From: a virus | Direction: 5' to 3' (one strand) | DNA length: 64,000 nucleotides | IMG/VR virus record: IMGVR_UViG_3300026382_000006 | Span: 62,001 to 126,000 of that record | Made by a program: the position numbers and the translations under genes | The notes under the pieces: generated by a model | What the model was told of the DNA's origin: nothing | What the model saw: only the letters and a program-made list of their open reading frames with translations | Database searches by the model: none | Shown here: piece by piece, positions 9,863 through 50,280 of the stretch | Layout of the letters: each line of letters opens with the position of its first letter | Numbering within the stretch: the stretch's first letter is position 1

Positions 9863-9888
9863 GTAATAGGAGTAAATACTCCTATTAC
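9863..9888 (-). terminator. Hairpin after prohead protease gene
   Basis: GTAATAGGAGT and its complement flank an AAAT loop, overlapping the last bases of the protease gene on the minus strand. Confidence 0.6.
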
Positions 9889-10634
9889 CAATTCATAATT
9901 ATATCTACTACATCTTTATCTTTTGCTAATACACTCTCTAGAGTCTCTATCACGCACTTACCATCTTTACAACCGCCTTCATAACCTACAATTATATTTT
10001 TTAAATCATTATCAGATAGGACTACATCCATTGTGGATTCTAATCCAGCTGCATTCCATTGGTTTGCCATATGCACACCGCCGTCATATACATAGTCCCA
10101 CGTAGATACTAACAATACATCTCTAATTACTAAATTTCCTACTGTTTTTTGTTTTACCAATGACCTTACAGAAAAATAGACATTCTCATCAGGATTTTCT
10201 AATGCTTCTTCCAATACTGCTTTTTTAGGTCCTTCTGGTTTTACCCAACCATATATTTTATAAATAGGATTTTTAAATCCTGGTTCTACTCTACCCGTAT
10301 TCTCTATTTCTATTTTCTTAATATGTGCGCATTTATTATCCGGGTCTAATCTAATAGTACGTTTTGTAAGTCCATTTATATCGTCATTTCTAATAAACCC
10401 CTCTACATCAGGGTGATCCTTTTCAGCTATTAAAATACCTTCGTTTATTCTTTTGGCTACTAAACTACCTGGTCCTAAAATAGCATTTATATCAGGCACA
10501 TTATAATAAATTCCTGATTTATTAAACGTATTAAATGCTCCAAAAGTTACTTTATAATATCCGTTTTCATCTTTTATTACTGTATTTTTAAAATTCTTTT
10601 TTTCTTTTTTACTAGCTAATACCATTTTATTCAT
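9885..10634 (-). CDS. Prohead maturation protease (T4 gp21 / S80 type)
   Basis: 249 residues. The family-typical His lies in AEKDHPDVEG (His74), and the Ser in VYFSVRSLV (Ser155), the arrangement of gp21-type prohead proteases (phiKZ gp175 family); these enzymes have a herpesvirus-protease-like fold. The role would be to cut capsid and inner-body propeptides inside the prohead. A VGYEGG motif at 216-221 has the same form as the proposed cleavage sites in the capsid and inner-body proteins, suggesting self-processing that would release a 30-residue tail. The start is supported by AAGGAGTAAAT. A short membrane ORF is upstream. Function is confident; the self-cleavage is inference. Confidence 0.82.
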   Translation of the reverse strand: MNKMVLASKKEKKNFKNTVIKDENGYYKVTFGAFNTFNKSGIYYNVPDINAILGPGSLVAKRINEGILIAEKDHPDVEGFIRNDDINGLTKRTIRLDPDNKCAHIKKIEIENTGRVEPGFKNPIYKIYGWVKPEGPKKAVLEEALENPDENVYFSVRSLVKQKTVGNLVIRDVLLVSTWDYVYDGGVHMANQWNAAGLESTMDVVLSDNDLKNIIVGYEGGCKDGKCVIETLESVLAKDKDVVDIIMNW

Positions 10635-36426: not shown

Positions 36427-37692
36427 CTAATATTTTTTAAATCTTTCATTTAACTTTTTCTTATAATAATTACCCCATGTTTTAATGGATTCTATTAGCC
36501 AATTTGTAAATGGTGGTTTTATAATATATTCAGATAACTTAACTACATTATTTAAATCATCTCTTACATCACCTATTATGTAGTTTGACAGAATACTAGC
36601 TACTGCGACCATGTCTTCATCAGCATCTTTTTCAGCTGATTTAACAAATTTCTCTACCTTTACTTTAACATCTTTAATTAATTTATTAGACTTATTGACA
36701 ATTTTTTCTACATCTGAATATTTTTTAATACCTGTATTTACTACTTCACCGACCTCTACAAAATCTAAAGGTTCTGTTATTTTTTTCAAAAGACCTTCAT
36801 AAAGTTCTTTCGTAATCTCCACACTATAGTCATGCTTTTTAATACTTTGTAACAATTGTTTTGTCTTTTTAATATCTCCGTTTTTAGCTGCATTTATTGC
36901 TTCATCAAGTTTATCTTTAGGGATTGTAACTATTTGTAACTTAATAGATACTCTATCTATCTTTTTTAATCTTACATTAATTATTTTATCATTAGTTTTA
37001 AAATTCTTTAAAAATTTACTATAAGTTCTATCGTATATTGCATTTTTACTACCTTCTAAAGTCCATCTTAATATAAACATTATTAAACTCTTATTTAATG
37101 TTCCGGATACTAACTGTTTATATTTATCTTCTAATTCTGTATAACTATTTTCTAATTGTCTTTCAATTTTATCATAAAATTTTATCATACCCTTAGCACT
37201 CGGTTCTACTTCGAACCAGTCTAATGCGACTGCTTCTTTAGCAATTAAAATCCTGACTGGTTCTGAAAAATTACCTTCTGGAACAATATTCCCTTTTTTA
37301 TCTGCTTCATCTAGTATTTTTTTAATTTTATATAGCGTAGTATTCTTATTCTTTAATCTGGTTAAAAAGAACGCAAATACCTTATTAAAAAAATCTACTA
37401 TGGAATTTATCAGTCTAGTTATTGTATTTAAAATACCTGATAACATTTTCTTAGCATCTACTTCATATCCTGTTGTAATTCTATCTGGTGATATCCCCAA
37501 CATAATCAAATTAGATTCAGTTATCTTATCTATATCTTCATAAGCTACTGTTAACAATCTAGTGTCCGATTCATTTTGTTTCATAACTTCTATAGAATCT
37601 ATTAAGTCGCACGGATTGACTGGTTTGTCACTTTCTTCATACCCTAATACTGATTTAACTTCATCTTCTAAATGTTTTGTTAAAAAATTCAT
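36427..37692 (-). CDS. Inner-body (internal head) protein paralog A
   Basis: 421 residues. Member of a seven-copy family in this window. The propeptide has several G/A-Y-E motifs (LGYEE, VAYED), then the shared block NLIMLGISPD and TTGYEV (Gly75-Glu77), where I infer protease cleavage. Directly after it comes a hydrophobic amphipathic run (MLSGILNTITRLINSIVDFF, residues 83-102). The remaining 300 residues are Lys-rich and helical. phiKZ packs paralogous, protease-trimmed proteins into its inner body and injects some into the host; that is the model for the role here. Confidence 0.7.
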   Translation of the reverse strand: MNFLTKHLEDEVKSVLGYEESDKPVNPCDLIDSIEVMKQNESDTRLLTVAYEDIDKITESNLIMLGISPDRITTGYEVDAKKMLSGILNTITRLINSIVDFFNKVFAFFLTRLKNKNTTLYKIKKILDEADKKGNIVPEGNFSEPVRILIAKEAVALDWFEVEPSAKGMIKFYDKIERQLENSYTELEDKYKQLVSGTLNKSLIMFILRWTLEGSKNAIYDRTYSKFLKNFKTNDKIINVRLKKIDRVSIKLQIVTIPKDKLDEAINAAKNGDIKKTKQLLQSIKKHDYSVEITKELYEGLLKKITEPLDFVEVGEVVNTGIKKYSDVEKIVNKSNKLIKDVKVKVEKFVKSAEKDADEDMVAVASILSNYIIGDVRDDLNNVVKLSEYIIKPPFTNWLIESIKTWGNYYKKKLNERFKKY

Positions 37693-39510: not shown

Positions 39511-39536
39511 AGTAAAGAGGATATTTCCTCTTTACT
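39511..39536 (-). terminator. Hairpin after inner-body paralog B
   Basis: AGTAAAGAGGA and its complement around TATT, overlapping the stop at 39535. A second small inverted repeat (CTTTCTTT/AAAGAAAG) lies just downstream at about 39484-39504. Confidence 0.6.
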
Positions 39537-40761
39537 ATTTAATTTTTTCAGATTTTTTAATTATTGCTTCATACCTAATAGGTAAACTTGCAATACCGTT
39601 ATACAAAGTAATTAAAGAATCAAAATACGTATTTATCATAAGCTGCATTCCTGCACCAATCTTTAACTGTTTAGCTAATTTTACTATTGCTCCTGGTAGA
39701 CCACCCATTACTTCAGCTGCGTCATCTATCATACCGTCTAACCAGTTTTCAGCTACTCCTTTACTATAGTAATCATCTATTTCCTTCATAACTTTATAAA
39801 GTTTTTTACTATCTTTTACAAGTTTAATAAGATCTTCTCTTTTAATAGTAATTTCATCTACTTTAGGTACTATACCTGAGCACATTGCTCTTTTATAATC
39901 AACTTTTTCATTATTTTCAGAAGGTTTATAACCAATTATTTCGACTTTTTTATTACTAAAACCTATAGGTGCCAATACTAAATCAGGTTTCCAACTTTTT
40001 AATTCGTTCAACATTCTACAATCTATTTTATCCAACATTTTTAATACTGTAGTATTTTTAGGAAATGATTTAGAAACGTCCTTAGGACCTTTGATTTTCA
40101 TCAACTCGACATACAATTTACGTATACCCTCGCTAATACTTCCATCTAAAAGTTGATCAGCATTAGTATTCACAAAGTCCTCCATATTTTTAAAATTTAG
40201 ATCTTTGTAAATATTAAAATAAAGATTAAGTCCGATGTTATCAGTTTTTACTTTAAAAGACTTCACATCAGTCATTTCCTCTAGTTCTTTAACTATATCG
40301 TCTAGGTGTTTATTATAACCCATGAACCATCTTCTTATTTTACCTAGTTTTTTAAGTACCGATTTTAAACCGTTAAATACACCTTTCATAGCTGCTTTAA
40401 GTTTTTCTAATACTTTTTTAGCCATATCCTGTAGACCTTCATAGCCTGCTTCTACAGATTCATAACCAGGTATAGTTACACTTTCGTTACCAAAAATAGT
40501 TCTTTCTATATTAGCTACTACTTCAAAACCTTTAGCAATATCTAGTTCTGTAAGTTTACCTTCTTGATGTTTAGTTTCTATCTTAACTAGCATTTCTTCC
40601 ATAGCAACAGTTGCTCCATATATCATCTCTAAACCAGCCGAAACATTATTCATTTCTGCTTCTAAAAGCCCGGTACCTACTTCGACTATCTCCTCATAGC
40701 CAGGTGCAGTAAATGGTTCAGTTGTTTCCTCAAAAGCTTCATATCTATCTAAAATACCCAT
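39535..40761 (-). CDS. Inner-body protein paralog B
   Basis: 408 residues. The long acidic propeptide carries many motif copies: APGYEE, AKGFEV, IPGYES (99-101) and EAGYEG (106-108). The last is followed by a strongly cationic amphipathic stretch (VLEKLKAAMKGVFNGLKSVL, residues 117-136) and then a helical body. N-terminal MGILDRYEAFEE matches the starts of paralogs D, F and G. Likely trimmed by the prohead protease and packed in the inner body. Confidence 0.7.
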   Translation of the reverse strand: MGILDRYEAFEETTEPFTAPGYEEIVEVGTGLLEAEMNNVSAGLEMIYGATVAMEEMLVKIETKHQEGKLTELDIAKGFEVVANIERTIFGNESVTIPGYESVEAGYEGLQDMAKKVLEKLKAAMKGVFNGLKSVLKKLGKIRRWFMGYNKHLDDIVKELEEMTDVKSFKVKTDNIGLNLYFNIYKDLNFKNMEDFVNTNADQLLDGSISEGIRKLYVELMKIKGPKDVSKSFPKNTTVLKMLDKIDCRMLNELKSWKPDLVLAPIGFSNKKVEIIGYKPSENNEKVDYKRAMCSGIVPKVDEITIKREDLIKLVKDSKKLYKVMKEIDDYYSKGVAENWLDGMIDDAAEVMGGLPGAIVKLAKQLKIGAGMQLMINTYFDSLITLYNGIASLPIRYEAIIKKSEKIK

Positions 40762-40797: not shown

Positions 40798-41871
40798 CTA
40801 CACAACTACTAAGTCTTTACTATCTGACAATTTAATTTCTATTCCTTTACACAAGTTTAAAGATTTTACACCATATGTATAAATATTTGATTTAATAAGA
40901 CCGTTTAATGATTTTGTATTGTGTTTTAAAAAGTTTCTAATAACACCACCGTTTACTTTATCTAAAACCTTAATAGCTCTTAATACTTCAGGATAAAACA
41001 CGCCCATAATCAATGCACTATTAACTGGATCCATCTTCTTTTCTTTAGTTATATATAAAGTCTTTAAATCTTTATTAACTTTTTTCATCATTTTTGTAAC
41101 TTTGTCTAATTCTTTTTCACCGTTATTCAACTCTTTTGTTAAATCGTTTATCAATGATTTACCCGTTTTTATAAGAGGTAAAATTTCCTTATTAGGATCT
41201 AAAGGTTTAACTTCGGCATTTTTTATATAATCTTTTCTTATTATTATTTCTTCCGAAATTAAACTTAATTTTCCTACTTCATTTTTAAATTTCATCTTCA
41301 ACTTGAAATCTTCTTTACTAATTTTTTCACCAGCAATCATCTTTTTAAAGAAAACTTTATAATCATTAAACGCGTTTTCCAATTCTTTAACATCGCCTTT
41401 ATAAACTATACCAGTTACGTAAATAATATCATCTTTCACGCCTGTAATATCTACAAATCCAGGTAATCCCAATAACTTCTTCATTTGTAAATAATCATTT
41501 ATTACCTTATCTAATTCACCGTTATTTTTAGATTCTACTTTACCGTCTTTTAATCTTTCTATTAACGCACCAAATCCTTTTTTATCAGAATAGTATGCAA
41601 TTTCTCTAATATCATTAAGATTAAATGTTGACAAAGTTGAAACATAAACACCAAAATAATTCTCAATATTTTTAGTATTCTTTTTCATTTTGTCTTCTAC
41701 TGCAGTATAGTATTCTAATAAACCTTTACCGTCTAAATGGTTTTTATTAAATATGACAGGTAATGATAGTTTAGATGCTAGAATTTGTTTAGTTTTATCG
41801 TCAAATTCATTCTTTTCTAAAACTAATTTTTTCTTACCATTTTCACTAACTTTATTATATGTTTCTTCCAA
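40798..41871 (-). CDS. Inner-body protein paralog C, C-terminal part (after in-frame TAG)
   Basis: 357 codons from a TTG at 41871 that has no ribosome binding site. Upstream, 27 sense codons in the same frame lead back to a TAG at 41953-41955 that ends the 105-codon N-terminal part. The 27 codons encode VSKVLDFIKKLLGKK, the cationic amphipathic element that follows the cleavage site in the paralogs. So this is the body of a 490-codon inner-body gene interrupted by one amber codon. It may be lost, made by suppression, or reflect a sequence error. The body is Lys-rich and helical. Confidence 0.65.
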   Translation of the reverse strand: MEETYNKVSENGKKKLVLEKNEFDDKTKQILASKLSLPVIFNKNHLDGKGLLEYYTAVEDKMKKNTKNIENYFGVYVSTLSTFNLNDIREIAYYSDKKGFGALIERLKDGKVESKNNGELDKVINDYLQMKKLLGLPGFVDITGVKDDIIYVTGIVYKGDVKELENAFNDYKVFFKKMIAGEKISKEDFKLKMKFKNEVGKLSLISEEIIIRKDYIKNAEVKPLDPNKEILPLIKTGKSLINDLTKELNNGEKELDKVTKMMKKVNKDLKTLYITKEKKMDPVNSALIMGVFYPEVLRAIKVLDKVNGGVIRNFLKHNTKSLNGLIKSNIYTYGVKSLNLCKGIEIKLSDSKDLVVV

Positions 41872-41952
41872 TCTACTAAATGAATCTATTTTTTTACCTA
41901 ATAATTTTTTAATAAAATCTAGTACTTTAGAAACTAGATCTTTAATACTGTA

Positions 41953-41955
41953 CTA
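41953..41955 (-). other. In-frame amber codon interrupting paralog C
   Basis: TAG with context CTT-TAG-TAC. Both sides are in one reading frame with no other stop over 490 codons, and both sides match the paralog family. Other genes here end with TAG, so general reassignment is unlikely. Confidence 0.8.
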
Positions 41956-42270
41956 AAGTTTTAGTAAAACATCACCTATTCTTTCACCCATGTTTTTAAT
42001 GGTATCTTTCACGCCTTCATAACCTGGACTATATGTAACTCCAAGTGCCTTTAAATTAGTTTCTAAATACCGATACCCTTCTTCAAAACCAATTTCAAAA
42101 TTATCGACATCATCAATATTTGCTAACATTTCATAACCAACTTCTGCATCTCTTACTTTCTCAATTATAGTAACTAAATCTAAATCTTCAAAACCATACT
42201 CAGTTTTACTTTCTTCATAAATAAATTCAGTTTTATTTATTTCATCATACTTTTCTAAAATATTCATCAT
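41953..42270 (-). CDS. Inner-body protein paralog C, N-terminal propeptide part
   Basis: 105 residues, ending at TAG. It has the family propeptide layout: MMNILEKYDE start, YGFED and VGYEM motifs, NLKALGVTYSPGYEG with the predicted cut at Gly83-Glu85, and about 20 residues of the mature part. A normal ribosome binding site (AAGGAGTAA) precedes it. On its own it would be little more than a propeptide, which argues that it is not an independent gene but the first part of paralog C. Confidence 0.68.
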   Translation of the reverse strand: MMNILEKYDEINKTEFIYEESKTEYGFEDLDLVTIIEKVRDAEVGYEMLANIDDVDNFEIGFEEGYRYLETNLKALGVTYSPGYEGVKDTIKNMGERIGDVLLKL

Positions 42271-43686
42271 TTACTCCTTATTTTTATTAAAATCATTCAA
42301 AGTCATTGTTATAATCTTCATCAACATTACTGTATACATGATATTGTCAGTCTCATAATGATATTGTAAATTTAATTTTTTCAACATTTCTATATATTGT
42401 TGTGCTAAATTATAATTTAAACCATCCGGGCTAAATATTATATTTAAATCCACTACTACGTTTAATACTATCCTATACGTCTTATTTAAATCCAACTCCT
42501 TACTACTCCTAATTTCTCCATCTGTATTTAAATAAAGTCCTAAATCCCTTAAGTTTTGATTTTCAAATAACTCAAAATGAAAAATATCAAATCCTGGTTT
42601 AAATAATGAATCGCCTATCCTAGTCTTTAGATAATCTAAAACAAATTCATTAATACCCAGAGCTTTTAATTCTTCAAGTGTTAAAATTAAATTAGGATCT
42701 TCTGGTAAAATTTCTAACAGTATAGATACTAATCTTACCATACCAGGTTTCTTAGCTATTCTATTAAAATCAAAACTGTCGTAATTTGGTACCTTAATAA
42801 TTACATCCGATTCCCTAACATACATATCTACATTATTTTTAATCTTTTCCATTGCTTCTGTGAAATAATTATTTGCATCTACATGTATTCTCGTAATTTC
42901 ATCTGGTAAAAACTTTTTATCTATAGGTTTGTTATTTACTGTAATAGGATATCTTAAAAATAATGAACTCGGTATTTCAATATCAAAACTAAATTGTAAT
43001 TCTATATAGTAACCTTTTTCATCTTTTTCAGGTTTTAAATCATATGGCTCTGACATTAAATAAATAAACACATTAGGTTGTATTTCCCTTACAATAGGTA
43101 CCTTATAATCATCTGTTCTCGATTTAATATAATCAATAGGTACACGTGATATTTCCAACAAATATTCACTAGGTTTTTTATTTAATAATTCTGCAATATT
43201 AATTGTTAAAGCTAACACAGGAACAGGAATTGTATAATAATATTCTACATCCATTACTAATCTATTACTATCTGTAATAGCTGTAGATTTTAATAAACTA
43301 ATTAATCTCACTATTTCATTTCTATTCTTACTATATAATCTTATATTTAAGTTAAAAGTAGTATTTATGATGTTATTATTTACTAAATAACCTATATTGT
43401 TATCCATTAATATAGCTTTACTATCTGGATATACCGCAGTATTATTAAACATGTAATCCGATTCTTGTATCTTTTCTACATTTACTTCCATATGGGTAGA
43501 ATAAGTTTTATTATCTTTAATATTATAATCTGTTTCAAAATTAGCCTCTTCTTTATCAGTTATAAAATAAACAGGCATTTCCTTATTTTTTAATAAATCA
43601 TTTTTTATCTTATCTATTGCCGATTTTACTATAGGTCTATCTATTGTAAACTCAGTATTATTCAGTAATACTATTCTTGTTATCAT
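42271..43686 (-). CDS. Probable tail/baseplate protein, 471 aa
   Basis: 471 residues, beta-rich and Asn/Ile-rich, with segments such as LNIRLYSKNRNEIVRLISLL and FIYLMSEPYDLKPEKDEKGY, then YITVNNK-like strands. No membrane span. It overlaps the upstream gene by 29 bases. It is similar in style to the plus-strand 52453 protein, both discussing strand-rich folds with central DPxL motifs, but I cannot name a family. Placed among inner-body and tail genes. Confidence 0.62.
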   Translation of the reverse strand: MITRIVLLNNTEFTIDRPIVKSAIDKIKNDLLKNKEMPVYFITDKEEANFETDYNIKDNKTYSTHMEVNVEKIQESDYMFNNTAVYPDSKAILMDNNIGYLVNNNIINTTFNLNIRLYSKNRNEIVRLISLLKSTAITDSNRLVMDVEYYYTIPVPVLALTINIAELLNKKPSEYLLEISRVPIDYIKSRTDDYKVPIVREIQPNVFIYLMSEPYDLKPEKDEKGYYIELQFSFDIEIPSSLFLRYPITVNNKPIDKKFLPDEITRIHVDANNYFTEAMEKIKNNVDMYVRESDVIIKVPNYDSFDFNRIAKKPGMVRLVSILLEILPEDPNLILTLEELKALGINEFVLDYLKTRIGDSLFKPGFDIFHFELFENQNLRDLGLYLNTDGEIRSSKELDLNKTYRIVLNVVVDLNIIFSPDGLNYNLAQQYIEMLKKLNLQYHYETDNIMYTVMLMKIITMTLNDFNKNKE

Positions 43687-44256: not shown

Positions 44257-44282
44257 CATATAGGAGAATTCTCTCCTATATG
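44257..44282 (-). terminator. Hairpin after inner-body paralog D
   Basis: CATATAGGAGA and its complement around ATTC, overlapping the stop at 44276. Shares the TAGGAGA arm with three other hairpins. Confidence 0.62.
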
Positions 44283-45832
44283 CGATCTAAAAGATGACCT
44301 AAACTACTTATATTTTTAAGTATAAAATCTGTATTTTCACCTAAAATCTTTTCTTCCAATACTAACTTATTTACCTCGTTAATAATTTTTGTAATGGAAT
44401 TTAGATTATTATTAAAACAATTTACTATTTTATTATAATCGTTAGAAACTTTTCTAATTAAAGTTAGTTGCATATCGCTTAAAGCTTCTCCGTTTAATGC
44501 GCTATCTACTATATTCTTTATACTTCTTGTATCTTTTTCCAAAGTTTTTATATATGGATCTAGTAATTTGTGCTTTTTAATATTTATTAAAAAGTCATAT
44601 AAGTTTCCAAATTCATTAAGTAAAAGCTTGGTATTAGATGTAGTTTTTCCTATTACATCAAAATTAGAATATGGAAAATCTGATATTACCTTTTCTAATT
44701 TAATTTGTAATTCATTTTTTAATACTGTATCTTTCATTATGTCTTCTAGATTTTTATTTTCTACTAGCTTTATTATTTCATCAATTACTTCTGTGTTAAT
44801 TCCAGTAAAATATGTATCTTTAAAACAAATAGGTGCAATGCTATTCTCGACATCTTCTATTGCTGGTAATCGAGATGCCATCGCTATTAATTTGCTATCT
44901 GCTTCTTTACCTGCAAGTAGCATTAGTAAGTATTTATACAACATTCTGACTCTAGATATAAAATCCAATATTATAACTGGCGATACACCATTCAACATGC
45001 AATACTTTGCGAGTTTGTTCTCATCTAGAAAATTATTTAACCTTGATCTTATTGTAAGAGCTTTTTTACCGGAAATATCTATGAATTTCTCCAACAATTC
45101 TATATAGAATTCTAAATCTTTTTTATACGAATCTTTCTCACGATTGGCAGCATTTAAACTAGCTACCAAGTTTTCCAATTTTTTCTTAGTTTTTTGAAGC
45201 TCTTGAGATAATTTTTTATTCTCTTCGGATAGAATTTTTTCATCCTCACGTGCGTTATTAATTCTTTCTTGTAATTCCGCGTTATGTGATTCCAGATTAT
45301 TTATTATTTCTTTATAATTATTAATCCTGTTTTTAAGACCTTCAAGATTTATATTTAATTCTCTAAGTTCTTGATCTTTTTTCTTAATTATTGCTTCTAA
45401 TTCTTCTATTTTCCTTTTGTTTTCTTCTTTTACTTTTTCTAGTCCTTCACTGTCTTTACCGAATATTTTCTTAAATACTTTCTTAAACCAGTTAACTACT
45501 TTTTCTACCATACCTACTATAAAATCCCATAATTTTTTTATACCAGTTTTTATAGCAGTTATAGTCTTAGATAAAATATTATCTTTGCCTTCGTATCCTA
45601 ATCTTATTGTATCTGGATCTATGCCTAACATAATTAAATTAGATTCAAATCCTGTATTTAATTTGGATACTGTTTCATAACCTATATATAGGATATTTAA
45701 ATCGGTAGATATTTGTTTTGTTTTTTCTACATTATCCAACAAATCCACCAACTCATAACCTATCTCTATCTCATCACCATCTACTGATGTTGTCTGATTA
45801 CTATTTTCAGTGTATTTACTTAAAATGCTCAT
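44276..45832 (-). CDS. Inner-body protein paralog D with long coiled coil
   Basis: 518 residues. Propeptide: MSILSKYTEN, IGYEL, IGYET, TGFES, NLIMLGIDPD and LGYEG (Gly79-Glu81, inferred cut). Next, AIKTGIKKLWDFIVGMVEKV and NWFKKVFKKIFGKD (about 93-124) form cationic amphipathic helices. Residues about 125-240 are a long, strongly heptad-like coiled coil unique to this copy. The remaining half resembles the other bodies. The coiled coil may give the inner body its rod-like packing; that is inference. Confidence 0.72.
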   Translation of the reverse strand: MSILSKYTENSNQTTSVDGDEIEIGYELVDLLDNVEKTKQISTDLNILYIGYETVSKLNTGFESNLIMLGIDPDTIRLGYEGKDNILSKTITAIKTGIKKLWDFIVGMVEKVVNWFKKVFKKIFGKDSEGLEKVKEENKRKIEELEAIIKKKDQELRELNINLEGLKNRINNYKEIINNLESHNAELQERINNAREDEKILSEENKKLSQELQKTKKKLENLVASLNAANREKDSYKKDLEFYIELLEKFIDISGKKALTIRSRLNNFLDENKLAKYCMLNGVSPVIILDFISRVRMLYKYLLMLLAGKEADSKLIAMASRLPAIEDVENSIAPICFKDTYFTGINTEVIDEIIKLVENKNLEDIMKDTVLKNELQIKLEKVISDFPYSNFDVIGKTTSNTKLLLNEFGNLYDFLINIKKHKLLDPYIKTLEKDTRSIKNIVDSALNGEALSDMQLTLIRKVSNDYNKIVNCFNNNLNSITKIINEVNKLVLEEKILGENTDFILKNISSLGHLLDRI

Positions 45833-45859: not shown

Positions 45860-47230
45860 TTAAAATACTTCATATAGTTTTAAACATTCATCTAAGTAAT
45901 CATAAATAGCATAATTGTTCACATTTCTAGACATACTAATAAGTCCATTAAAACTATCTATAATGAATTTAAATTCTGTATTTAGTAAATAGGACACCAT
46001 ATTTCTATATACTTCACCCTTTAATTTTTGAAGACTATCACCGTGTTCTAATAGTTTGTTAACGTATTTATTAAACTTACTAAACTGTCTTTTATACTTA
46101 TCTAAGATACCCTTATAATGTTTAGCCATTAATTCTATTTCACGTATTGTTCCATCTACTTCATCAACGTCTAGTACTTTAACAGTGAAATTCTTGTAAT
46201 TTGTATTTGTAGGATTTAAAGAAATTTTTTCATACTTTGTTAAAGATTTTAATTTATTCATAGCATCATTTAACAATGTTAAGTTTTCATCACCTTTACT
46301 ATAGACCATATTTTTAATAATATTACTAGTATCCGGATTTTTATACATCCGTACACCTAATACTACTTTATCATAATTTAAGGAAATAATGTTTATTTTC
46401 TTGTCTAAGTTACTTGGTAAAATTTTGTCTAAAACTTTGTCTATTTCAGATAATCCAATTTTATTATTATAATAAGAAAATAATAAAAGTGATTCGAAAA
46501 TATCTAATATTTCATCTGGATCATCAGGTATATTTATATTTTTCTGTTTTATAATTCGAATACCTGTTAACTTTTGAAAAATAGTTTTTACTTTACTGGC
46601 TATCTCACTAGGATTATCCTCTAATGCTGCAATTAAGGCTACGTTATTGTATTCCTTAACATCTAAACCTTTAACTACATTAAAATACCTAAATAACCCT
46701 ACATAACTAATTTCGTTAGACACAATACCAACACCAAATAATTGTTTTCTTATTTTATCAGCAACTTTATCCGATAATGCTGTAGAAGCTCTGGATAATC
46801 GCTTTGTTCGTATTTCATTCACTCTTTTTCTCATCTGTGAGATAAACACAGTCTTACCTGTAATTACTCTAAACAAGAAATTAACTGCTTTTACCATTAA
46901 TTCAGCTGTAATTCTTATAGATTCTATTATAGCCGTCTTTACTATTCTCCATGTCTTTTTTAAAAGAGTTTTAGCATCTTCATTACCTGTTCTAATATCA
47001 GATATACCTAATATTTTAAGATTGCTTAGCATGTCCTCATAACCGTTTGTCACTATGTCATTATTTACATTATAAGCATTTAACGCTAAGTCTGTAGCTT
47101 TAGAAATTTGTATTTGCTCATCTATCAGATCCATATATTCCATTTCCTCTAACCCAATGGATAGTTCATCATCTTTTTCAACGCTCACCTCACATTCAAC
47201 ATTATACGTGTATTGTTTTATTAAATCCAT
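45860..47230 (-). CDS. Inner-body protein paralog E
   Basis: 456 residues. Propeptide with TNGYED at 62-66 and the shared NLKILGISD block, but at the usual cut position it reads RTGNED (Gly82-Asn83-Glu84), the only copy with Asn in place of Tyr/Phe. If the aromatic residue is needed, this copy may be cut elsewhere or not at all. Residues about 88-120 (LLKKTWRIVKTAIIESIRI) are again cationic and amphipathic. The body is Lys/Ile/Asn-rich and helical. Confidence 0.7.
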   Translation of the reverse strand: MDLIKQYTYNVECEVSVEKDDELSIGLEEMEYMDLIDEQIQISKATDLALNAYNVNNDIVTNGYEDMLSNLKILGISDIRTGNEDAKTLLKKTWRIVKTAIIESIRITAELMVKAVNFLFRVITGKTVFISQMRKRVNEIRTKRLSRASTALSDKVADKIRKQLFGVGIVSNEISYVGLFRYFNVVKGLDVKEYNNVALIAALEDNPSEIASKVKTIFQKLTGIRIIKQKNINIPDDPDEILDIFESLLLFSYYNNKIGLSEIDKVLDKILPSNLDKKINIISLNYDKVVLGVRMYKNPDTSNIIKNMVYSKGDENLTLLNDAMNKLKSLTKYEKISLNPTNTNYKNFTVKVLDVDEVDGTIREIELMAKHYKGILDKYKRQFSKFNKYVNKLLEHGDSLQKLKGEVYRNMVSYLLNTEFKFIIDSFNGLISMSRNVNNYAIYDYLDECLKLYEVF

Positions 47231-47308: not shown

Positions 47309-48667
47309 TTAAGATTTAGTATATAGTTTAACACTATATGTAACTAACATAGCAATTCTAGATTTAGTAAGTTCAGCTGCCGTATTTATAGCTCCCGTAG
47401 CAACTGCCCTGCTCATCGGTATTATTACCTTATTAAGAAATACTAAGTATGTTTTATATAAGTCATCTTTTTCAGCAATTTTAATTAAATCTTTAATTTG
47501 TTTATCTGTTTCTTTAACAACTTTTTTAATATCTTTTACTGTTTTACTAATAGGTTTAGACGCTTTCTCAAGAGCTGTCACAATTTGCTCAGCTTCTTTT
47601 ACATCTACAGGTTGAATTTTCTTAGCAAGAGCCTCTACCTGCTTTTTATCAGGTCTTACTTCTACTACATTGTATGCTATTGCTTTTCTTAAATCATTAA
47701 TAACTTTTGTAAGGTTAGCATCGTCCTTATTAAGTTCTGTTTCAATTTCATCTATTCTTTTTTTATCGGCCGATAAAACAACTACCTTAATTAAATTAGG
47801 TCTAATTTCACTAACTGTACCATAAACGTATTTATTATCAAGTTTTATTTTATTTTTAACTACTTCACCAGCTACGCCTTCGATCTTACCTGATTTAAGA
47901 CTAGAAATAGTACCCAATAAAGATGCTTTAATTTTCTTTTCATCTTTATTATCTGTTATCGTCTTTGACAATATTTCATAGCCGTCTACTGTAGTTGCAA
48001 ATATATCCTCTGCTTCTTTTAGGAAGCATTCAATTCCTTTTACATCTACAGTTTTACATACTGTTTCAATTACTGCTAGATTATTGGCTAGAGTTTTAGC
48101 ATCACCTTCGCTAAATTTAGCATCTTTAGGTAAATCTTTACCTGCTTCTTTTACTTTCTCAAGTAGTTTTTTAAGACTATCTGCACTTCTAGCTCTTTTA
48201 CCGAATAGGCTAGCTATAAAATCAGATACTTTTTCTACGAATCTAACTACAGCTTCCCATAATTTTTTAAGTCCGGTTTTAATAGCTCCCCAGATTTTAC
48301 CTAGCCATCCTTCTTTTTCACCTTTACCACCATCTTCTTCAAATCCCGCTACAGCTACAGACTCAGGATCTACACCTAACATTTTTAGGTTTGCTTTAAA
48401 AGACTCAAATCCTACTACTGCTGTTTCGGGTGTCATTTTACCTTTTGCAATCAATTCAGCATCGATAGCTATGCTATGTTCGATAGCTTCGAATCCGTTT
48501 GTCAATACTTCTAAATCGGTTGCCACAGTAGTTACTTCTTCAAAAGCTTCTACTGCTTCCATCATTGCTTCTTCTGGTTCTACTTCTGCATTACCGAAGT
48601 CAATTACTCCGTTACCAGTAAGCTCATCTGCTTCTTCAAATCCTAATACTCTATCTAATGGTCCCAT
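47309..48667 (-). CDS. Inner-body protein paralog F
   Basis: 452 residues from ATG 48667; AAGGAGATTTTA precedes it, five codons inside the longest frame. Propeptide motifs: LGFEE, TNGFEA, VGFES and AVAGFEED (Gly108-Glu110, inferred cut), after NLKMLGVDPE. Then WLGKIWGAIKTGLKKLWEAV (about 121-140) and RFVEKVSDFIASLFGKR form the amphipathic element. Codon use is richer in Ala, Gly and Val than the other copies, similar to the capsid gene, suggesting this is the most highly expressed paralog. Confidence 0.74.
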   Translation of the reverse strand: MGPLDRVLGFEEADELTGNGVIDFGNAEVEPEEAMMEAVEAFEEVTTVATDLEVLTNGFEAIEHSIAIDAELIAKGKMTPETAVVGFESFKANLKMLGVDPESVAVAGFEEDGGKGEKEGWLGKIWGAIKTGLKKLWEAVVRFVEKVSDFIASLFGKRARSADSLKKLLEKVKEAGKDLPKDAKFSEGDAKTLANNLAVIETVCKTVDVKGIECFLKEAEDIFATTVDGYEILSKTITDNKDEKKIKASLLGTISSLKSGKIEGVAGEVVKNKIKLDNKYVYGTVSEIRPNLIKVVVLSADKKRIDEIETELNKDDANLTKVINDLRKAIAYNVVEVRPDKKQVEALAKKIQPVDVKEAEQIVTALEKASKPISKTVKDIKKVVKETDKQIKDLIKIAEKDDLYKTYLVFLNKVIIPMSRAVATGAINTAAELTKSRIAMLVTYSVKLYTKS

Positions 48668-48708
48668 TAAAATCTCCTTCAATTTTGATTTATTTTTTCA
48701 ATACAAAG

Positions 48709-50280
48709 TTACCTAACTGGCATTTTTGTATAATAATCAGATAATATTCTTATAAATAAAGACATACCTTTCTTGTTAAAGATAAAGTCCCTATAGTATT
48801 TACTAATACTGTGCACAGTATTACTCATCATTTGTAATGTATGTAAGATGAGTTCACTATATTTAAACCAAACTTTACCTAATCGTTTCATGTCTGGATT
48901 ATCGCTATTATTTAAAAATTGTTTCATCACTTCATTCATAGTTTTAAAACTTCTCATAAACTTATTTATTTTGTTTTTTAATTCTTTTTCTCTATATATA
49001 CCTATTTTAAATTTTTCAGTAACAGCGTCATATGTAGCTAATGCTTTTATTACTTTCTCTAATTGTCCTCTAGTAACTATGTCGGATTCATCCAACATAT
49101 CTTTAAATTTATATCCTAAAGATTCTACTATATCTTTTGTTAACCTACCAGGCATAATACTAATATTTAGATAAGTTTTATAAATACTGTTAAACACCTC
49201 TAATAATTCATCAAACGCTCTTTCATCAGCTTTAGTAGAACGTTTTAATATTTCCATCATGTCTTTATAACATTTCTCAAAATCAGGTTTTATTGTTAAT
49301 CTTAAATATGAAATCTCATTAGGTCCAATAGATGTAATAATTATTTTATTATTGTCAGTATCTTTTATATCTTCATACGTTAAAATGTCTTTATAAACTT
49401 TTATTAAATAATCACTATCATATTTTACATCAAATAGTAATGGTAATTTATGTAGCTCTTTTAAATCATCTCTATATAGTTTTTTAATAACATCTACTTC
49501 ATTAGCTAGTACTTCATAATCTTTAGACAATACAACTGTATTAATATTTTCCATAATTTTATTTTTAAATATAAACATATGTGTATCCATAGGGAATATC
49601 ATATCTAATGCTTCAGGTATCTGTAAATTTTCTAATTTATAAAATACTTCTAATAAAGCTCTCATTACGTCTATAACATTATAAGAATCGATATGTCCTG
49701 CCATATATAAGACCATAGGCATTCTCATCAATGTCTCATTTTTTATTCTATCTAATAAATCATAATCTTCATCATTTTCTACAATTCTATCTAATTCTTC
49801 ATCGATATTTTTATGTTCTTTTTCAGCTTTCTTTTTAGCTTTTTCATAACTTTCTTCTACTTCTTCTTTAACAGTCTTTTTATCTTTTTTAAACCATGAT
49901 ATAATAGTATTTATCAATTTGTCTAGAAATTTATAAATAGCTTTTAATAATTCACCTATTGTATTTATAATTGTTTTAAAAAAGTTTTTGATAGCATTTA
50001 TACTGGTATCTAACACTCCCTCGAAACCTGGATCAACTGTATTTATATTTATTCCCAACATTTGTAAATTGATTTTAACATACTCAGTAGCTACATACAA
50101 ATCATCAGTCTGTGTGGTATTATTTATAACACTACTAGCAGTAGAGACTTTACTAGCTTTAACTAAGTTTTGTTTTAAATCTTCTACAGCGTCTATATAA
50201 TCGATATACGATTCTTCTTTACTAGACTCATTATTAGTTGTTTCAACCTCAAAACCTTCATATTTATTTATTCTATCCAT
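48709..50280 (-). CDS. Inner-body protein paralog G
   Basis: 523 residues. MDRINKYEGFEVE start, NLQMLGININ block, then DPGFEG at Gly85-Glu87 (inferred cut). Residues about 95-140 contain INAIKNFFKTIINTIGELLK and LINTIISWFKKDKK, again amphipathic and cationic. A Lys/Glu coiled stretch (about 145-165) follows, then a large helical body ending YYTKMPVR. Seventh member of the family, first of the minus-strand inner-body run. Confidence 0.72.
   Translation of the reverse strand: MDRINKYEGFEVETTNNESSKEESYIDYIDAVEDLKQNLVKASKVSTASSVINNTTQTDDLYVATEYVKINLQMLGININTVDPGFEGVLDTSINAIKNFFKTIINTIGELLKAIYKFLDKLINTIISWFKKDKKTVKEEVEESYEKAKKKAEKEHKNIDEELDRIVENDEDYDLLDRIKNETLMRMPMVLYMAGHIDSYNVIDVMRALLEVFYKLENLQIPEALDMIFPMDTHMFIFKNKIMENINTVVLSKDYEVLANEVDVIKKLYRDDLKELHKLPLLFDVKYDSDYLIKVYKDILTYEDIKDTDNNKIIITSIGPNEISYLRLTIKPDFEKCYKDMMEILKRSTKADERAFDELLEVFNSIYKTYLNISIMPGRLTKDIVESLGYKFKDMLDESDIVTRGQLEKVIKALATYDAVTEKFKIGIYREKELKNKINKFMRSFKTMNEVMKQFLNNSDNPDMKRLGKVWFKYSELILHTLQMMSNTVHSISKYYRDFIFNKKGMSLFIRILSDYYTKMPVR

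Follow-up and report, generated by a model that had tools for sequence, protein, structure and literature searches.

A probable recent nonsense mutation in a phiKZ-type internal-head protein gene

Results

An in-frame amber codon interrupts a gene of 105 plus 384 codons

The window analysed here is a 64,000-nucleotide stretch of a viral record of 186,213 bases (G000; 28% G+C) from a large uncultured phage. On its minus strand, at 40798-42270, translation from an ATG at 42270 runs for 105 codons to a TAG at 41955-41953; beyond it the same frame stays open for another 384 sense codons and closes with a TAG at 40798, so that codon 106 is the sole break of the frame between its start and its end. 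The locus comprises the following features:

42274-42278, minus strand: AGGAG ribosome-binding site of the interrupted gene, read in the sequence, with a spacing typical of the phage's genes.
41956-42270, minus strand: N-terminal part of 105 codons, comprising a propeptide that has four G-x-E motifs and a further 20 residues (29.7 bits over family model positions 1-137).
42016-42024, minus strand: GYE-85, the predicted prohead-protease site (P3-P1 codons), where E85 is near-invariant; the phiKZ motif is S/A/G-X-E (PMC5694885).
41953-41955, minus strand: in-frame amber TAG at codon 106, from the translation.
41872-41952, minus strand: 27-codon bridge, the putative remainder of the post-cut amphipathic helix, aligned with the helix of intact paralogs and present in a low-confidence structural model.
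40798-41952, minus strand: C-terminal part of 384 codons plus the terminal TAG, lacking its own ribosome-binding site (36.3 bits over family model positions 141-473).

An earlier note on this DNA, made from the sequence alone, had described a 105-codon and a 357-codon frame lying in one frame and separated by a TAG and 27 sense codons. Translation confirms the shared frame and the 27-codon spacing, but the count of 357 begins at a TTG that has no ribosome-binding site and the real stretch is 384 codons, across which, as the note had also said of the gene body, there is no further stop. The chance of an open frame of 384 codons at the phage's base composition is ∼4e-15, and the codon-usage score of this part is normal (0.312 bits per codon, against 0.269 ± 0.072 for intact phage genes).

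In an alignment of the paralogs the stop falls in a column that holds tryptophan in three intact copies, inside the first helix past the near-invariant cleavage-site glutamate E85. A structure prediction of low confidence (pLDDT 54), which served only for helix continuity around the stop, places a helix at residues 87-145 that would span codon 106, and termination would therefore cut this helix after 19 residues. The distance of 20 residues between the GYE-85 cut site and the stop is as the earlier note gave it, and the 27-codon bridge, which it took for the post-cleavage amphipathic element, does align with the same helix of the intact paralogs. The propeptide carries a charge of -15. The note's further idea, that a terminated product would yield the propeptide and a short cationic peptide, is not supported: because most of the charge lies past the stop, the 20-residue tail between GYE-85 and codon 106 has a net charge of only +1, and the released peptide would be weakly charged.

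The gene lies in an array of seven inner-head paralogs

Seven family members, all on the minus strand, lie between 36427 and 50280. The six intact ones and the phage's head protease are:

36427-37692, minus strand: intact paralog of 421 aa, from pairwise comparison.
39535-40761, minus strand: intact family member of 408 aa, the weakest relation to the others (E 5e-4 to the paralog at 47309; weak PF12699 match).
44276-45832, minus strand: intact paralog of 518 aa with a coiled-coil insertion, from pairwise comparison.
45860-47230, minus strand: intact paralog of 456 aa with an ortholog in the relative G001, from pairwise comparison.
47309-48682, minus strand: intact paralog of 457 aa with a G001 ortholog, the phage's best PF12699 match (25.9 bits, cut-off 27).
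48709-50280, minus strand: intact paralog of 523 aa with a G001 ortholog, from pairwise comparison.
9885-10634, minus strand: head maturation protease (phrog_3014, E 6.9e-51).

Each of the seven begins with an acidic stretch containing S/A/G-x-E motifs, and the helix that comes next is net basic over its first 50 residues. E85 of the interrupted gene is one of only three near-invariant columns among 14 family sequences. The curated cut-off of PF12699, the phiKZ internal-head/inner-body family, is 27 bits, and the window's own copies all score below it, the interrupted gene at 14.8 and the best paralog at 25.9 bits. Above the cut-off are members from 11 named phiKZ-like phages and from the syntenic locus of a second relative, G002, where the same flanking genes enclose PF12699 members with E down to 9e-42. 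The interrupted gene is homologous to the 47309-48682 paralog, and a model joined with the G002 members gives it 77.1 bits. Since the phage's own sequences fall short of the Pfam threshold, membership rests on homologous and syntenic sequences that exceed it, and on these grounds we assign the array to the PF12699 family.

Proteins of family A (PF12699) belong to the inner head and undergo cleavage; they number 2 to 7 per phage, and the phiKZ protease cuts after S/A/G-X-E (PMC5694885). The interrupted gene has a propeptide ending in S/A/G-X-E followed by a basic amphipathic helix, and the phage has a cognate protease predicted to cut there; a search with Pfam PF03420 missed this protease, which PHROGs recovered. 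The major capsid protein is of phiKZ type (phrog_3231, E 1.4e-111), and every one of its best hits in the annotated phages is a phiKZ-like giant, at <60% identity. The C-terminal part of the interrupted gene alone gave no match in annotated phages.

The two frames are parts of one gene

We built a family profile from 13 intact paralogs and homologs, leaving the interrupted gene out. The two parts of that gene fit it back to back, at positions 1-137 (29.7 bits) and 141-473 (36.3 bits), and joined they score 77.1 bits, against ≤7.1 for the best domain in 200 shuffles. The best intact homolog in G001 aligns across the stop (33% identity, E about 3e-12), and the PF12699 match likewise crosses the TAG (E 9.8e-4, 14.8 bits). 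Because the halves are colinear in the profile and both the G001 homolog and PF12699 run through the stop, 40798-42270 is one interrupted gene, in agreement with the earlier note, which had called it an inner-body paralog split by a single amber; the pairwise hits to intact copies say the same.

The presence of two long frames might instead point to two independent genes, or to a programmed arrangement in which propeptide and body are made as separate products. A scan of the second part for start sites, however, found none with a ribosome-binding site: anti-Shine-Dalgarno pairing was +0.4 kcal/mol at the best common start and -1.0 at the best ATG, against a median of -8.2 kcal/mol for 110 phage frames of at least 200 codons. 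The earlier note had named relatives carrying two independent genes with proper starts as evidence that would speak for such an arrangement, and the split form is seen in no relative. The missing ribosome-binding site, together with two halves that are pieces of a single family profile, rules out a two-gene model for practical purposes, and we regard it as exceedingly improbable.

No other family copy searched carries the stop

None of the 73 PF12699 matches in the 11 named giant phages contains an internal stop, nor do any of the family members in G001 and G002; in all, some 80 matches to the family, from 13 other records, are stop-free. In G001 the place of the interrupted gene is taken by 70 bp between the flanking genes, with no counterpart there. 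The members at 36427-37692, 39535-40761, 40798-42270 and 44276-45832 all lack syntenic counterparts in G001, in which the genes to either side nearly abut. Two phages with 72% identity between their capsid proteins thus differ here by four copies of the family. IMG/VR searches with the C-terminal part, the capsid protein and adjacent conserved genes returned no relative closer than G001, and a scan for the flanking DNA, with codon 106 left open, returned no second copy of the phage among the records covered, from which nearly identical ones may be missing. The G002 contig (L021, JACUUH010000001.1; 209 kb) is filed under a gammaproteobacterial MAG; with its phiKZ-like head genes and strong PF12699 members, it looks like a giant phage that was placed in a bacterial bin.

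A stop peculiar to one copy may also reflect a mistake in consensus calling or assembly, or the choice of a minor variant from a mixed population, in which case the phage in nature would have a sense codon and make the full-length protein. One base change suffices for this, the viral record derives from a metagenome, the frame is otherwise intact and normal in its codon usage, and the family matches in the other records are uninterrupted. Against it, codon 106 was the one stop to fall within the body of a sense-strand gene in the alignments listed by a homology scan of G000 against G001, the other stop-containing alignments being, on our reading, antisense shadow frames or stretches upstream of start codons; the record therefore does not look error-ridden. 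Substitution errors are, moreover, rare in short-read consensus. We consider an error or a mixed population unlikely, though deserving of some weight.

TAG terminates translation elsewhere in the phage

TAG closes 30 of the phage's 114 long frames, and 22 of the 25 TAG-ended frames with a G001 homolog stop within 25 residues of the homolog's end. Judged by these coincident ends, TAG serves this phage as an ordinary terminator. Back-up stops are not enriched behind it, following 13 of 27 TAG-ended genes compared with 35 of 71 TAA-ended ones. ARAGORN found no tRNA in 186.0 of the 186.2 kb (all but the last 213 bases), and Rfam found none in a gathering-threshold scan that was not exhaustive, having missed a group I intron described below. 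Neither around the stop nor behind it does the RNA fold better than shuffled sequence (z -0.61 and -0.75).

These observations bear on several ways in which the amber might be bypassed. Reassignment of TAG is ruled out by its use as a terminator and by the matching homolog ends: in-frame TAG is not common, there being one sense-strand in-gene TAG, nor is TAG avoided at gene ends, and no phage-encoded amber suppressor tRNA was found by either program, a search that the earlier note had proposed. A structured read-through element is likewise rejected, there being no structure beyond that of the shuffles. Frameshift rescue at CTT-TAG would not bypass the stop either, since the other two frames close within about seven codons, and the downstream homology lies in the original frame.

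What can still be entertained is a leaky or suppressed amber, where near-cognate decoding or a host suppressor tRNA would give a small dose of full-length protein. In its favour, the 384 downstream codons are intact and of normal usage. However, no tRNA was found in G000, TAG ends about a quarter of the long frames in keeping with homolog ends, back-up stops are no commoner after TAG than after TAA, there is no RNA structure near the stop, and the stop is common to no relative. A TAG with T as the next base is not known as a leaky context in E. coli, which also counts against leakiness. We therefore judge read-through to be distinctly unlikely. That the amber is actively maintained, with natural low-level read-through setting a small dose of this inner-head protein relative to its six paralogs, or with the full-length form confined to suppressor-carrying hosts, seems to us quite improbable.

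One TAG-ended frame, that of an RNA polymerase beta-like gene, has a G001 homolog that runs on by hundreds of residues, and it was considered as a second amber-broken gene. The cause proved to be a group I intron on the minus strand outside the window, at G000:C1 847-1115 (= L003:847-1115; RF00028, 100.2 bits, E 9.6e-27), which interrupts the phage's gene; the homolog in G001 has no such interruption. Both ends of G000:C1 (L003:1 and L009:19998) fall within one RNA polymerase beta-like gene, which is consistent with a complete genome, circularly permuted and about 186 kb long, a small size among phages of the phiKZ group.

Discussion

We favour, with moderate confidence, a recent single-base nonsense change at codon 106 in a member of the phiKZ internal-head family. 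The earlier note had left the interruption as recent, suppressed or an error; the first is the best supported, and suppression finds no support in the tRNA searches, the use of TAG as a normal terminator or the RNA around the stop. We infer how the intact members are processed and ejected, and also that the interrupted copy is dispensable and its loss recent. By analogy with phiKZ and SPN3US, in which these steps are established, the intact members would start as precursors, each with an acidic propeptide some 80-115 residues long, and enter the prohead, where the head protease would cut them after a G-x-E motif with loss of the propeptide, and the mature proteins would be packed and ejected with the DNA. 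In the interrupted copy translation would be expected to stop 20 residues past the cut site. As this would leave the propeptide and a stub but no mature protein, the copy is probably non-functional. Its loss is probably tolerated, since six intact relatives sit beside it, and the loss of one of seven copies is plausible given that G001 has no counterparts of four copies at this locus.

The timing may be bounded from the rest of the gene. A stop would arise from 282 of the 4401 possible single changes, yet no second stop is present; if constraint is gone, divergence since then would be less than about 0.03 substitutions per site (95%), which argues for a recent event. The absence of decay in the rest of the gene would be equally expected if the protein were still made or if the base were wrong, and to that extent it counts against a nonsense mutation.

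A nonsense mutation here would be a natural nonsense allele within the large inner-head paralog arrays of phiKZ-type phages, which vary in size between phages. Should reads confirm it, it would directly show one member of an array to be dispensable in nature, which would fit the suggestion that many such head proteins may not be essential (PMC5694885). If not confirmed, it would be ordinary gene decay or an error.

The array resembles the named PF12699 inner-body proteins, phiKZ gp93, gp94, gp95, gp162 and gp163 and SPN3US gp53 and gp54 ('paralog family A'), in its long acidic N-terminal propeptides with S/A/G-x-E motifs, in the variable number of paralogs and in forming a clustered gene array in a phage with a phiKZ-type major capsid protein and head protease. 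It differs from them in that none of its individual sequences reaches the Pfam cut-off of 27 bits (the best scores 25.9), and the interrupted copy differs from the ∼80 other family matches searched in that it alone has an internal amber. An in-frame TAG inside a structural gene is also a feature of TAG-reassigned phages, crAss-like and others, but here TAG terminates normally, the case is single and no suppressor tRNA was found. There is a likeness, too, to the laboratory amber mutants of SPN3US ejection proteins such as 47(am1), in which a head/ejection protein is truncated by an amber and the truncated product is still packaged and only partly processed (PMC5694885). SPN3US gp47, however, is cut late (Q482) and is essential (PMC5694885), whereas the natural stop described here lies 20 residues past the predicted cut and would remove nearly the whole mature protein of one of seven paralogs.
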